From the IMG/VR virus record IMGVR_UViG_3300025009_000215, positions 1-41,530 of that record: a DNA stretch of 41,530 nt. The stretch is one strand, 5' to 3'. Shown in pieces: positions 3,095 through 26,728 of the stretch. The notes below the pieces were generated by a model. That model was given only the letters and a program-made list of their open reading frames with translations. It was not told the origin of the DNA and searched no databases. A program made the translations under genes and the position numbers. The stretch comes from a virus. Position 1 is the stretch's first letter, and each line of letters opens with the position of its first letter.

Positions 3095-4081
3095 ATGATA
3101 AAACTAATCGATGTATCGCACTACCAGAATAAAATAGACTGGAAAAAAGTAAAAAAGACAGGAATAACTTGCGCTATTCTTAAATGTACAGAAGGAATAA
3201 AGTATAAAGACCCCACGTTTGAACTCAACAGAAAAGAAGCAAGAAAGAACGGTATTTTAGTCGGAGCTTATCATTTTTGTCGAGGGTTTAATGTTGATAT
3301 GGAGGCTAACTGGTTTATAAAATCTCTAGGAGAAATCCAGGAGGGAGAATTTATAGCGTTAGATTTCGAAGTCGAAATGGATTACCCTACAAACTGGTGC
3401 GGTCTTTGGTTAGACACTGTAACAGCAAAAACTAAATTAAGACCATTTATGTATATGAACTCATCAACAGTGGTGAGGTATGATTGGGAAGTTATATCAA
3501 AAGAGTTTGGTTTATGGGTAGCTCGGTATGGAACTAATGACGGAACTCAACAAGTTAAACCAGCGACTGGCAAATGGAATACTTGGGCTATCTGGCAATA
3601 CACCTCAAGAGGAAAAGTAGATGGAATTATCGGAAATGTGGATGTGAATGTTTTTAATGGAACTTTGACGCAACTAAAGAAATACGGCAAGCCACCTGTG
3701 AGCTCTAAAATTGACTCAGGTGAGGCGAAACCCCCAAAGGTGGTACAAACAGACACAACTCCAAAACAAGACGAAACTGTGTCAATTCCTGTGCTTGTCC
3801 ATACTACGCTCCCGGATAATTCAACAGCTAATCCCATTACTGGGGGTAGCTGGACAGTAGAAGAATATAAAAAAGAGCTAATTAGTAAATTAAATATAAT
3901 GGAACAATTGTTACAAATGTTCAAAAGTAGAACTATTATTCTGGCAGTTTTACAAGGAACTCTAGGAGTGATTATCGCTGTTGAAACTCAATATCCAACA
4001 GGCGGAACTCTCTTGATCGTAAAATCGATTATAGACATACTGCTTAGATTTTACACAACTAAACCAGTTGATACTCTTTAA
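3095..4081 (+). CDS. GH25 endolysin fused to a C-terminal holin-like membrane domain
   Basis: 328 residues. Residues 1-190 are a GH25 muramidase: DVSHYQ (6-11), ILKCTEG, ALDFE with catalytic Asp90/Glu92, WQYTS (167-171) and VDVNVF (182-187). It should cut the peptidoglycan glycan backbone. A Pro/Lys/Thr linker (about 195-245) leads to a segment with two hydrophobic stretches (about 280-297 and 303-321) ending ILLRFYTTKPV. This resembles small holin-like phage membrane proteins that end in a LRFxTxKP motif. The usual GH25 endolysin instead carries wall-binding repeats. There is no signal peptide. An AAAGTT-TTCG-AACTTT hairpin follows the stop directly. Confidence 0.9.
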   Translation: MIKLIDVSHYQNKIDWKKVKKTGITCAILKCTEGIKYKDPTFELNRKEARKNGILVGAYHFCRGFNVDMEANWFIKSLGEIQEGEFIALDFEVEMDYPTNWCGLWLDTVTAKTKLRPFMYMNSSTVVRYDWEVISKEFGLWVARYGTNDGTQQVKPATGKWNTWAIWQYTSRGKVDGIIGNVDVNVFNGTLTQLKKYGKPPVSSKIDSGEAKPPKVVQTDTTPKQDETVSIPVLVHTTLPDNSTANPITGGSWTVEEYKKELISKLNIMEQLLQMFKSRTIILAVLQGTLGVIIAVETQYPTGGTLLIVKSIIDILLRFYTTKPVDTL

Positions 4082-4183: not shown

Positions 4184-4211
4184 TTGACAAATATTTTATA
4201 TCGTGTATAAT
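4184..4211 (+). promoter_or_regulatory. Consensus sigma70 promoter
   Basis: Perfect TTGACA (4184-4189) and TATAAT (4206-4211) with a 16-bp spacer. Transcription would begin near 4218, directly at the structured RNA described next. It is among the best promoter matches in the window. Confidence 0.88.
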
Positions 4212-4217
4212 GTAATT

Positions 4218-4425
4218 ACAACGTGGGCGAATATCACAAGAAGTTTCTACTCGATGACTTGTGCCACTACGTCCACGAGACTGGGGATTACCATAACCAG
4301 TCAACAACCTGAATCGGTTTATGGAGTTTAAATGCTCTTACGAGGAAAGGATAGAGTAGCGCCAAGGGACTAAAGGCGTGGGTAACGCCTCCCTTGGTGA
4401 GTATGGTGAGTATAATGTTAAATTT
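4218..4425 (+). ncRNA. Candidate structured non-coding RNA or regulatory leader
   Basis: About 200 nt with no convincing ORF but many helices. CGTGG 4222-4226 pairs with CCACG 4273-4277. CACAAG 4235-4240 pairs with CTTGTG 4258-4263. GACTGG 4279-4284 pairs with CCAGTC 4297-4302. CCAAGGG 4362-4368 pairs with CCCTTGG 4391-4397 and encloses AGGCGT 4374-4379 with ACGCCT 4385-4390. The first loop (CTACTC, 4247-4252) pairs perfectly with GAGTAG at 4354-4359, a long-range pseudoknot. There is no T-run at the end, so the RNA may run on into the membrane-microprotein genes. I recognise no known RNA family. Confidence 0.6.
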
Positions 4426-4500
4426 ATGAAAAAAGAAACTTATTTTATTTTGTTTATGACGTTAATAAATATAATATTATTTTTATGTACGACCAAATAG
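4426..4500 (+). CDS. 24-residue membrane microprotein
   Basis: ATG at 4426 right after the structured RNA, TAG at 4498. After a charged MKKE it is almost all hydrophobic (YFILFMTLINIILFL), a single membrane helix. The end overlaps the next gene by 16 bp. First of a series of tiny membrane proteins. Confidence 0.45.
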   Translation: MKKETYFILFMTLINIILFLCTTK

Positions 4501-4666: not shown

Positions 4667-4783
4667 ATGGTAAAAGTTAATTGTTTAGGCTGTGCAACTT
4701 CTTTGATTGGAATTATATTGGTTATATTTATTTTAACTCATATCTCCGATATTTGGATATTTTTAGAAAACTTAATTGGTTAA
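4667..4783 (+). CDS. 38-residue membrane microprotein
   Basis: ATG at 4667, TAA at 4781. CLGC near the N-terminus precedes one hydrophobic helix (SLIGIILVIFILTHI), and the tail ends in ENLIG. AT-rich leader, no SD. Probably inserts in the inner membrane. No family recognised. Confidence 0.5.
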   Translation: MVKVNCLGCATSLIGIILVIFILTHISDIWIFLENLIG

Positions 4784-6345: not shown

Positions 6346-6690
6346 ATGAAATGCAAACATTGTGGTCAAGAAATAAAAAAAACAAAGTGGACTAAAATCG
6401 GAGACTTAGAATGGAGCGAAGACTTAGGCGAAATGAATTGGTTCGAAGCTGAAAAAAAATGCAAAGAGCTAGGTGGAAGATTACCAACTAGGATTGAACT
6501 GATTAATTTGTTAGATAATCACTATGAAGAAATGACTGGAAAATTAAATGAAGCCGGCTACAACTATTGGTCGGCGACTACGTACTCGTACAACGCTCAG
6601 TACGCTTGGGTCGTGCTCTTGCCCTACGGCTACACGAACACCACTACTAAGACTACCTCTGCCAGTTACCGAGTGCGTTGCGTTCGCTAG
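6346..6690 (+). CDS. Zinc ribbon plus DUF1566/C-lectin-fold protein, likely DGR-type variable protein
   Basis: 114 residues. An N-terminal CKHCGQ zinc knuckle (3-8) is joined to a DUF1566 (Lcl C-terminal) C-type-lectin fold: MNWFEAEKKCKELGGRLPTR (about 32-51), then YWSATTYSYNAQYAWVV and SASYRVRCVR at the end. Target proteins of diversity-generating retroelements use this fold and end this way. The last ~135 bp switch abruptly to GC-rich codons dominated by TAC, AAC, ACC and ACT, unlike the AT-rich 5' half. This is what adenine-templated mutagenesis of a 3' variable region leaves. No reverse transcriptase or template repeat is visible here, so it would have to act in trans. Confidence 0.7.
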   Translation: MKCKHCGQEIKKTKWTKIGDLEWSEDLGEMNWFEAEKKCKELGGRLPTRIELINLLDNHYEEMTGKLNEAGYNYWSATTYSYNAQYAWVVLLPYGYTNTTTKTTSASYRVRCVR

Positions 6691-22754: not shown

Positions 22755-24167
22755 ATGAAAATATTGCAAGGTAATGAGGCGAGACAACGAATAAAAAAAG
22801 GGATTGATAAATGTGTTGATGTAGTTAAGGTATCAATGGGAGGACAAGGTAAAAATGTCTTAATCTACAATGGAGTATCTACTGAAATAATCAACGACGG
22901 GGTATCAATCGCTAGAGAAGTGAATGTTAAGGATGAAATAGAGCAAGCAGGAATACAATTAGCAAAACAGTGCGCTAACCAAACAGACGAGGACTGCGGT
23001 GACGGAACAACAACTACGCTGGTTCTTTTACAATCTATATTAGATAAAATTATCACTGATATTCCAACAGGTAACCCAAGAGAAATCAGAGAGAATTTGT
23101 TTAAGGAAGCCGAAGAAATTTTAGCTGAAATTCCAGTTAAGCAGATAGAATCAATGGATGATGTTTATAATCTAGCTTTAACTTCCAGTTTAGATGAAAA
23201 AGTAGCTGGATTAATTAAGGGAATTTATTCCGAACTTGGTGAAGACGCTCAAATTTCAATCGAGGAAACCTCACGGGACGTATTGGAAGCAGAAATCACT
23301 AAGGGGATGAGGTTTGAAAGCAAAAAAGCCGACAAATTAAGTGAAGAAAAGCAAATTATAGAAGATTGTAGCGTGTTAGTGCTAGATAATGTCGAAACAA
23401 TTGACGAAATAGGCGAAGCGGTTAAAAAAGCAAGCGGTAACGGAGAGAATAATTTGTTAGTGATAGCCAATAGTTTTTCAAGACCAGTTTTAGTTTCTAT
23501 AATGGCGACTAGAACATTTAATATTATCCCGATTGAATATAAAATGTTTACTCCGTTAGAAGATGTCAAGGAATACGCAGGGGATAAGGTAAAAAAAGCG
23601 ATTATAACTCAAGATAGTGTTACTTTGATTGAAGGGAACGGAGACGCTACTGGTAAAATAAAAGCGTTGGAGGATAAATTGGCGGTTGAAGAGTCCACTT
23701 ACGAAAAAGAAAACCTCGAGAAGCGTATTGCTCAATTAAAAGGTAAAATTGCTATTATCAGAGTAGGGAAGAACACAGATGTCGCTAGAACAGAAGCCGT
23801 TAAAAAGGTTGAGGACGCTTTGGGTGCGGTTAAAGGAGCTTATGAACTAGGATATTGTAAGGGTGGAGGGATGGCGTTAATAGATGCAATGGTAAGTTTA
23901 AACCTGTCTTGGTTTAGAGGAGATATTTATGCTAAGGATGGAAAAATAGAGACAAATACCAATCCTCGAAAAAAAATCGTTAATAATTTCTATGGGGCAC
24001 CATACAGACAAATTTGTGAAAATGCTGGGGTTGAAAAAATAGAAGTTGGGGATAATGTTATCGACTCCTATAAAACTGTTAAATATTCATTATTAAACGC
24101 TCTCTCAACTGCGACAAGTATTCTCACAGCAGAGGCGGCGTTAATTGAAGAAAAAGAAAATGACTAA
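22755..24167 (+). CDS. groEL: Phage GroEL-type chaperonin (shortened)
   Basis: 470 residues against about 545 for bacterial GroEL. Key equatorial motifs are kept: INDGVSIAREV (46-56), GDGTTTT (82-88) for ATP binding, and KVEDALGAVKGA (351-362), whose Asp354 matches the catalytic Asp398 of E. coli GroEL; GGG (370-372) follows. The apical domain is present (about 185-340). The loss is mainly after residue 380, where the usual second equatorial stretch is abridged, and there is no Gly-Met tail. No GroES gene is in the window. The position after the capsid gene suggests capsid-protein folding. Confidence 0.9.
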   Translation: MKILQGNEARQRIKKGIDKCVDVVKVSMGGQGKNVLIYNGVSTEIINDGVSIAREVNVKDEIEQAGIQLAKQCANQTDEDCGDGTTTTLVLLQSILDKIITDIPTGNPREIRENLFKEAEEILAEIPVKQIESMDDVYNLALTSSLDEKVAGLIKGIYSELGEDAQISIEETSRDVLEAEITKGMRFESKKADKLSEEKQIIEDCSVLVLDNVETIDEIGEAVKKASGNGENNLLVIANSFSRPVLVSIMATRTFNIIPIEYKMFTPLEDVKEYAGDKVKKAIITQDSVTLIEGNGDATGKIKALEDKLAVEESTYEKENLEKRIAQLKGKIAIIRVGKNTDVARTEAVKKVEDALGAVKGAYELGYCKGGGMALIDAMVSLNLSWFRGDIYAKDGKIETNTNPRKKIVNNFYGAPYRQICENAGVEKIEVGDNVIDSYKTVKYSLLNALSTATSILTAEAALIEEKEND

Positions 24168-24463: not shown

Positions 24464-26728
24464 ATGCTAACAGCCTGTTTAATTGTAAAACCAACGCCAA
24501 ACGAAGCGAAATTGCTCGACAGATGTCTTTCATATTTAAAAGGCAACGTAGATGAGATTTGCATTACTCAAGCAGGTAAAGAACCGATTGAGCCAGTTTC
24601 GAAGGTTATTAGAAAGTACAAGGGGAAAGAGTCATTTTACAAATGGAACAATAATTTTGCAGATGCTAGGAATTTCAATTTTTCGCAAGCGACTGGGGAT
24701 TTTATCTTCTGGTGCGATACCGACGATATTGTAAAAGGAACGGATAAGTTAAAAAGTTTGGTTGAAGAAATTAGGGATAAAAACATCGATACGGTAGCGA
24801 TGAATTATCTCTATGACTTTAACGAAAATAAAGAATGTACAGTAAAACACATTAAAACAAGAATAGTGAAGAATGGAAGCGTTAAATGGGTCGGATCAGT
24901 CCACGAGGACTTTGAAAACCTAAGAGATATAACAGCATATTTCTGCAAAGACATTGAGATAATGCACCTAACAGACGAAAAAAGACAGCAAGGAAGCGTC
25001 AAAAGAAACTTAGAGATAGCTCTTTCTGAAATTGAAAGAAACCCAAAAGACCCGAGAAGCACTTGGCTTGTGGCAAATGCTTACTGGGGGAATAATCAGA
25101 AAAAAGAAGCTATCGAGAGCTTTCAGAAGTTTCTAAAAGAAAGTGGAAGCGAAGAAGAAAAGTACGTAGCGAATATGGTGTTAGCTTCATTGACTGACGA
25201 TGAAAAATACGCTTTGGAAGCTATTAGTCTAAGACCGACTTATCCGAATGCTTATCACAAGATAGCCGAGTTTAAATTCAACCAAGGAAAATACCAAACA
25301 GCTATTGATTTCATCGAAATAGGACTGCAACTACCGATACCAGAACTCAAGATGATAGTTTTCAACCCAAGAGATTATGACTACAACCCCCTAATGGTGA
25401 TGATGAAATGTTATTGGAAGCTCGGGAAGACCAAAAAATCGGTTGAAATAGTCAATAAAATGGCTGAAATGTTTCCAAATGACAAGGTAATTAAAGAAAA
25501 AAAGGCTCTATTAGATGAAGAATTAGGCGAAATATCAAACATAGAAAAATATCTAAAGAAAACCGAGAAATTAAAAGGAGAAAAATTGAAAGTTTATATA
25601 GACAATTTACCGGAAAAAGTGAGGCAACACCCTCTAATTTGTTCGTTGAAAAATCAAAATTTCATTAAAACCGAAACAAGCGGTAAGGATTTAGTATTTT
25701 ACTGTTCTTATACAATGAAAGCGTGGAATCCTGAAATAGCTTTAACTGAAGGAGTAGGCGGAAGTGAGGAGGCTGTAATAAACCTCTCACGAGAACTCAC
25801 AAAATTAGGATGGAATGTAACAGTTTATAATAACTGCGGAAAAGGCGGAGAATGGGACGGAGTAAAATATAGACCATTTTGGGAATATAACGTTCGAGAT
25901 AAACAAGATTGGACTATCCTATGGCGACATCCTAAGCCTTGCGATTACAACCCAAATTCAAAGATAGCGGTTGATATGCACGATGTATTGAAAAGCGGAG
26001 AATTTACCGACGAACGACTGGCAAAGATTGATAAAGTATTCGTGAAGTCAAACGCCCATAGAGTTTTATTTCCGAATATTCCTGACGAGAAAGTAGCAGT
26101 TATTGCTAACGGAATAAACCCTGAAATGTTCGGGAAAAAAGAAAAGAATAAATATCTGATTTTAAATACTTCATCCGCAGATAGACACCTCGAAGCTACG
26201 CTAGATGTTTTTGAAGAACTGATTAAAAGGCAACCTGATAAACCTTGGAAGCTAGCCTGGTATTATGGCTGGGGATTATATGATGAAGTCCATAAAGACA
26301 ATCCGGAAATGATGGCTTGGAAGAATAGACAAGTAGAAAGATTTGAAAAACTAAAAAAAGAAGGACGAGCCGAAGGAGGAACTATGATAGGACACCAAGA
26401 AATTGCAGACAAGTATTTAGAGGCTGGGATATTCCTATACCCTAGCGAGTTCTATGAAATTGACTGTATCTCGGCACGGAAAGCTCAATTAGCAGGGTGC
26501 AAAATGGTAACATCAAATTTCGCCGCTCTCAATGAAACAGTTAAAACCAAAAAAGTTCATACGAACGGAAAGAAGTGGGAAACAGAGGCAACATTCGGGG
26601 ACACTGAAAACAGGGATAAATATGTAGAAGCGATTACCAACTGGGAAAATAAAAGTAACCCTAAGCTAATTTCTAAAGAGTATAACTGGTCAAATATCGC
26701 AAAACAATGGAACGAACAGTTATCTTAA
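24464..26728 (+). CDS. Two-domain glycosyltransferase (GT2 - TPR - GT4)
   Basis: 754 residues. Residues 1-170 are a GT-A fold of family GT2 (LIVKPTPNEAKLLDRCLSYL, WCDTDDIV with the DxD metal site at 85-88, and a VHEDFENL block). A TPR-like helical part spans about 170-390. Residues about 400-754 are a GT-B (GT4-like) domain with GVGGSEEAVINLSREL, VIANGINPEMF and FLYPSEFYEID. Two active sites could add sugars one after another to virion or host-surface glycans. The end overlaps the next transferase gene by 22 bp. Confidence 0.82.
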   Translation: MLTACLIVKPTPNEAKLLDRCLSYLKGNVDEICITQAGKEPIEPVSKVIRKYKGKESFYKWNNNFADARNFNFSQATGDFIFWCDTDDIVKGTDKLKSLVEEIRDKNIDTVAMNYLYDFNENKECTVKHIKTRIVKNGSVKWVGSVHEDFENLRDITAYFCKDIEIMHLTDEKRQQGSVKRNLEIALSEIERNPKDPRSTWLVANAYWGNNQKKEAIESFQKFLKESGSEEEKYVANMVLASLTDDEKYALEAISLRPTYPNAYHKIAEFKFNQGKYQTAIDFIEIGLQLPIPELKMIVFNPRDYDYNPLMVMMKCYWKLGKTKKSVEIVNKMAEMFPNDKVIKEKKALLDEELGEISNIEKYLKKTEKLKGEKLKVYIDNLPEKVRQHPLICSLKNQNFIKTETSGKDLVFYCSYTMKAWNPEIALTEGVGGSEEAVINLSRELTKLGWNVTVYNNCGKGGEWDGVKYRPFWEYNVRDKQDWTILWRHPKPCDYNPNSKIAVDMHDVLKSGEFTDERLAKIDKVFVKSNAHRVLFPNIPDEKVAVIANGINPEMFGKKEKNKYLILNTSSADRHLEATLDVFEELIKRQPDKPWKLAWYYGWGLYDEVHKDNPEMMAWKNRQVERFEKLKKEGRAEGGTMIGHQEIADKYLEAGIFLYPSEFYEIDCISARKAQLAGCKMVTSNFAALNETVKTKKVHTNGKKWETEATFGDTENRDKYVEAITNWENKSNPKLISKEYNWSNIAKQWNEQLS

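Follow-up and report, generated by a model that had tools for sequence, protein, structure and literature searches.

The DNA analyzed here (hereafter, the window), from an uncultivated phage, comprises 41,530 nucleotides, positions 1 to 41,530 of the IMG/VR record IMGVR_UViG_3300025009_000215, and encodes an endolysin at 3095–4081 whose GH25 muramidase domain is continued, in the same chain, by a hydrophobic C-terminal tail. On balance, we read this gene as a fusion of lysis genes, in which the muramidase is joined through a linker to a holin-like two-helix module that is encoded separately elsewhere, and which would tether the enzyme to the membrane. An earlier note made from the sequence alone (hereafter, the original prediction) had described GH25 catalysis joined to a hydrophobic C-terminus ending LLRFYTTKPV, and in this it was correct.

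The open reading frame (ORF) runs from ATG to TAA over 328 codons without interruption. Pfam family PF01183 (GH25) matches its N-terminal part at 2.5e-40, PHROG endolysin families match down to 1.6e-54, and the closest solved structure is 1,4-beta-N-acetylmuramidase M1 (entry 1jfx, 5e-22). The expected acidic catalytic residues, Asp6, Asp90, and Glu92, do not vary across 44 aligned sequences, and the muramidase domain is intact. A structure search with the endolysin returned GH25 lysozymes, most of which aligned over roughly the extent of the catalytic domain only. The protein begins MIKLIDVSHYQ, and hydrophobicity over residues 1–200 peaks at 0.51, with no hydrophobic segment. Assignment to the signal-arrest-release (SAR) or signal-peptide class of endolysins was rejected, as an N-terminal hydrophobic export segment is not present in these residues.

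A wall-binding domain is frequent, although not universal, at the C-terminus of phage GH25 endolysins. Searches of residues 200–328 against Pfam, PHROGs, and NCBIfam matched no family, neither wall-binding nor holin, and no LysM, SH3, or similar wall-binding domain was matched in residues 201–328. Buried helices of a soluble fold, which the original prediction had set beside a wall-binding domain as an alternative nature for the tail, were not seen either: in the AlphaFold2 model, which is confident in the barrel (predicted local distance difference test [pLDDT] about 97), three helices of moderate confidence follow the linker and stand apart from the barrel (Table 1). The two hydrophobic segments that had been described are unequal. 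The first is strong (Kyte-Doolittle maximum 1.88, residues 280–298) but the other is marginal (1.26, around residues 302–320), and an extra amphipathic helix lies in front of them. With a Lys, an Asp, and an Arg and a large hydrophobic moment (0.43), the second helix may lie at the membrane surface, or cross the membrane only as part of an assembly. A hydrophobicity of 1.88 after the catalytic domain is reached by five of 115 related GH25 ORFs that extend at least 40 residues past the domain, and two of these five are proven holin-domain fusions. When the C-terminal 129 residues were shuffled, both segments appeared at the observed strength in 2.2% of shuffles. The identification of the tail as a membrane module, rather than a wall-binding or soluble domain, is supported.

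Table 1. Coordinates of the endolysin gene, its parts, and the candidate partner gene in the window.
Feature	Position	Strand	Basis
Endolysin gene: GH25 muramidase with putative C-terminal holin-like membrane module, 328 residues	3095..4081	+	ORF, GH25 match
GH25 catalytic domain, residues 5–178	3107..3628	+	Pfam; alignment; structure model
Disordered linker rich in Pro, Thr, Ser, and Lys, residues 198–254	3686..3856	+	Model pLDDT below 50 at residues 205–250
Predicted amphipathic helix, residues 255–275	3857..3919	+	Structure model
KSRT landmark before the first transmembrane helix, residues 277–280	3923..3934	+	
First transmembrane helix, clear, residues 279–299	3929..3991	+	Hydrophobicity, structure model
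Second helix, amphipathic with weak hydrophobicity, either marginally transmembrane or at the surface, residues 305–322	4007..4060	+	
LLRFYTTKPV landmark closing the second helix, residues 316–325	4040..4069	+	
XhlA-like protein, 114 residues, a candidate lysis partner with a coiled coil and a single C-terminal transmembrane helix	1399..1743	+	

Small two-helix proteins of lysis cassettes in unrelated phages point to a probable origin of this module. The podovirus MW202812.1, from Manatee Spring, was retrieved through its homologous GH25 endolysin, and its lysis region encodes as separate neighbors a 64-residue two-helix protein, a protein annotated as hemolysin xhlA, and the endolysin. The small protein (MTPKPFYLSKTVWLNVITTLVAALTFLPSVSGLIPDVALPYILGVVGVLNVILRVWFTETPVSH) includes SKT...VILRVWFTETPV, and two landmarks are common to it and the endolysin tail: S(K/R)T starting helix 1, and LR-x2-3-T following helix 2. 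Its best library matches are sub-threshold (DUF7940, 0.009; two holin PHROGs, 0.02 and 0.3). A relative with 42% identity is encoded on viral contig L215, where the adjoining gene weakly matches an Rz-like spanin (0.012). Members of a third group (L204–L206) are found near a lipoprotein-like ORF and a peptidase-type endolysin (L205; endolysin read by inspection). The set of small two-helix proteins with S(K/R)T...LR-x2-3-T comprises L210, L215, and L204–L206; L207 has only its first 13 residues in common with the L204–L206 group (BLAST) and matches a holin PHROG at 7e-8. Among 19,651 ORFs, the motif pair combined with two hydrophobic stretches was found in eight, namely six small proteins, one chance occurrence, and the endolysin itself, compared with 0.55 occurrences in residue-shuffled sets; 0.11% of composition-matched tail shuffles bear the motif pair. 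From these sequence comparisons, it is likely that the endolysin tail and the small lysis-cassette proteins share descent.

Several observations weigh against a holin-derived module. No holin model of Pfam, PHROGs, or NCBIfam matches the tail at E-values up to 10, so the comparison with holin families proposed in the original prediction was negative. BLAST gave no alignment between the tail and the MW202812.1 small protein, and against a profile built from five of the small proteins the tail scores a non-significant E of 3.8 (19,651 ORFs); that alignment keeps register between SRT and the LR end and spans nearly the whole profile. The motif was partly defined after L097, itself found with the tail as query, and the motif statistics are partly circular, as a weak resemblance to the tail is what drew attention to the L097/L204 group; the MW202812.1 and L215 small proteins were not found through such resemblance. 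The second helix is marginal also by a crude score (3.1 vs 0.3 for the first). The XhlA-like gene is 1.35 kb from the endolysin gene, with other ORFs between, and its own assignment is weak (phrog_937, hemolysin, E 8e-4; transmembrane helix at residues 94–112), with no XhlA match in Pfam. The holin-like signature claimed for the tail therefore survives in part: the motifs at its two ends are found again in two-helix proteins that lysis cassettes encode on their own, but no holin model matches it and the profile similarity is not significant. Likewise, a one-chain endolysin-holin or tethered muramidase had been proposed, and the tail is of the membrane type that this calls for, but a role as holin is not established, given the weak second helix and the separate XhlA-like gene.

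No relative sharing the tail was found in viral contigs and phage records with the whole endolysin or the tail alone as query, and none of eight viral records retrieved through the terminase or helicase matched the endolysin gene. The same layout, which the original prediction suggested seeking elsewhere, does occur in viral contigs with a curated holin domain. GH25 ORFs on L101 and L094 end in Phage_holin_Dp1 (PF16938; 5.6e-13 and 1.9e-12), matches that exceed the Pfam cut-off and are supported by PHROG holin matches. A scan with the L101-type Dp1 tail gave 19 contigs, including GH25–Dp1 chains (L185–L189, where L185 is the contig of L101) and amidase-like–Dp1 chains (L191–L195, L197, L198, and L200, the catalytic domain being named by inspection); L190 and L196 are cut, and L199 and L201–L203 carry Dp1 proteins standing alone. 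An isolate-heavy phage collection contained no record covering 80% of the L101 fusion, and the structure model of a Dp1 fusion was too poor to be used (pLDDT 49.5). Membership of our tail in Phage_holin_Dp1 was tried and rejected (hhalign probability 1.9%, no full alignment). Because the Dp1 module and the tail have no detectable profile relation, fusions of the endolysin-holin type probably arose more than once.

In most amidase–Dp1 fusions (for instance, ORFs L191:2056–3297, L192:2125–3318, and L200:2071–3312), an AAGGAG-like motif lies 5–10 bases before an in-frame ATG ahead of the holin domain (VMIPMSNK...), which suggests that these genes also produce free holin. The GH25–Dp1 fusions do not have this arrangement. 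For an internal start that would free the tail at 3095–4081 as its own protein, no upstream ribosome-binding motif was seen, such motifs being scarce genome-wide: Shine-Dalgarno motifs precede 3 of 33 plus-strand starts, under the rate at random positions. Three further GH25 endolysins (L087:1640–2641, L047:3914–4786, and L099:3884–4846) have long Pro-Val-rich linkers and end in one helix, hydrophobic or amphipathic, that carries basic residues, possibly another membrane-attached type judging by these features. Additionally, a GH25 protein of L126 (4767–6332; Pseudoclavibacter) has one hydrophobic helix between its catalytic domain and LysM repeats.

The charges of the tail suggest how the fused module would sit in the membrane. 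Basic residues precede helix 1 (KSR) and follow helix 2 (R, K) and are absent from the loop; the positive-inside rule then predicts an inside location for the two ends of the hairpin. With no N-terminal export signal, the tail would insert in this orientation, and the muramidase would build up on the inner side of the cytoplasmic membrane, tethered there by its tail. Since the three parts are separate in MW202812.1 and two of them are fused here, we infer that muramidases anchored by their tails form a complex in the membrane with the XhlA-like protein; the tails would assemble, with the XhlA-like protein as their probable partner, much as the holin XhlB is partnered by XhlA in phage PBSX. In enterococcal phages, XhlA always occurs together with a holin of the Dp1 or phage_holin_1 type, and Dp1 is the preferred partner of GH25 endolysins (PMC10630273). 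At a programmed time the complex would collapse the membrane, and the enzyme, still tethered or clipped free, would get to the peptidoglycan at the lesion via its 57-residue disordered linker, which extends to about 20 nm at most, enough to pass the membrane.

The most serious rival to a fused holin-like module is that the C-terminal helices do nothing but anchor and concentrate the muramidase, with the hole made by the XhlA-like protein, by an unrecognised holin, or by both, and collapse of the membrane freeing or exposing the enzyme. We consider this possible, if less probable than the fusion. It accords with the single clear transmembrane helix of the tail, the failure of holin models to match it, the separate XhlA-like membrane protein, the short ORFs with one hydrophobic helix downstream of the endolysin gene (4667–4783), and the GH25 endolysins of L087, L047, and L099, which end in one amphipathic or hydrophobic helix after a long linker. 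A pure anchor, however, needs neither a second helix nor the landmarks, so the match in two-helix layout and in both landmarks to small proteins that belong to lysis cassettes counts against it. More doubtful is the fullest version of the fusion, in which one polypeptide delivers itself: the tail would make the lesion and place its own muramidase at the peptidoglycan, with hole-former and wall-cutter in a 1:1 ratio and timed together. The separate XhlA-like gene means that the phage may not depend on one chain for lysis. If true, self-delivery would imply that one-chain lysis proteins arose several times from different holins (the module described here, Dp1, and the TpeE type).

A flip-through carrier, as proposed for TpeE/BhlA-type holins, seems improbable. 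Here the tails would weaken the membrane and the helices invert, each carrying its fused enzyme across once, a role for which the amphipathic, marginally hydrophobic second helix would be suited, and a holin-endolysin fusion of Clostridium sporogenes did prompt such a proposal (PMC9527704). The polarity is reversed, however: the clostridial holin is N-terminal, with the enzyme on its amphipathic helix, whereas in our protein the enzyme precedes the first helix. Finally, a mis-assembly of two neighboring genes, or hydrophobic helices that belong to a soluble domain, is very improbable: the region is known from one assembly (a 100% identical sibling, L003, retrieved via its terminase, has no match to the endolysin gene) and close relatives of the C-terminus were not found in viral contigs or phage records, but the frame is open across the tail as well as the linker and shows no other start signal, the linker resembles those of other modular endolysins, the model gives no soluble fold, and the same architecture occurs in independent fusions.

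Other features of the window are recorded here. Near-consensus sigma-70 sites occur at 1740–1768 and 4184–4211. The latter, just past the lysin gene, is a perfect sigma-70-type site (TTGACA-16-TATAAT) and leads into about 210 bases without an evident gene (region 4184–4440), which fold better than each of 200 shuffles (z -3.2) and match nothing in Rfam; this stretch is a possible small RNA. The small protein encoded at 6346–6690 has a C-terminal Lcl domain (Pfam 1.2e-12) and is possibly a variable protein of the C-type-lectin fold. At 22755–24167 the phage encodes a GroEL-like chaperonin (phrog_5725, 8e-70) about 30% identical to counterparts in Cellulophaga, Bacteroides, and Enterococcus phages; relatives of both this protein and the terminase are distant only. 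Downstream of the head-gene region, a large protein (24464–26728) has glycosyltransferase and TPR matches.

In the usual view of phage lysis timing, an independent holin is the clock, and a soluble endolysin waits in the cytoplasm. An endolysin-holin fusion ends this independence, as the amounts, location, and release of the two become coupled, and it raises the question of whether tethering speeds, localises, or restrains lysis. Recurring fusions with different holin-type modules (the present tail, Dp1 joined to two types of catalytic domain, and the clostridial example) suggest that the layout is under-recorded, partly because at least one large census of lytic proteins dropped endolysin candidates containing transmembrane regions (PMC12596118).

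Among the systems closest to the 3095–4081 protein are the GH25–Dp1 and amidase–Dp1 fusions, on which we located no paper: these too combine in one chain a catalytic domain, a variable linker, an amphipathic helix, a two-helix membrane module, and a short tail, but that module belongs to a curated holin family, whereas our tail matches none. The PBSX cassette of the Bacillus prophage (XhlA/XhlB/XlyA) and that of MW202812.1 likewise pair an XhlA-type protein and a small membrane protein with an endolysin (PMC10630273); there the small membrane protein has its own gene, and here it is fused to the endolysin. SAR endolysins and LysP335-type GH25 endolysins with N-terminal transmembrane domains are also membrane-tethered phage lysins, but through N-terminal export or anchor helices that our protein does not have (PMC9371310). 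In M4Lys of Salmonella phage BSPM4, a C-terminal transmembrane domain is required for lysis when the protein is overproduced in E. coli, without holin or Sec; its catalytic domain is different, and the authors assumed one transmembrane segment, with the N-terminal part predicted outside (PMC7143992). The Clostridium sporogenes fusion joins a TpeE/BhlA-type holin module to an endolysin naturally in one chain, but its module is N-terminal, of the one-helix-plus-amphipathic type, and of another holin family (PMC9527704). The layout at 3095–4081 is therefore not unique: the Dp1 fusions show it with a curated holin domain, and M4Lys and the Clostridium sporogenes fusion are published precedents.
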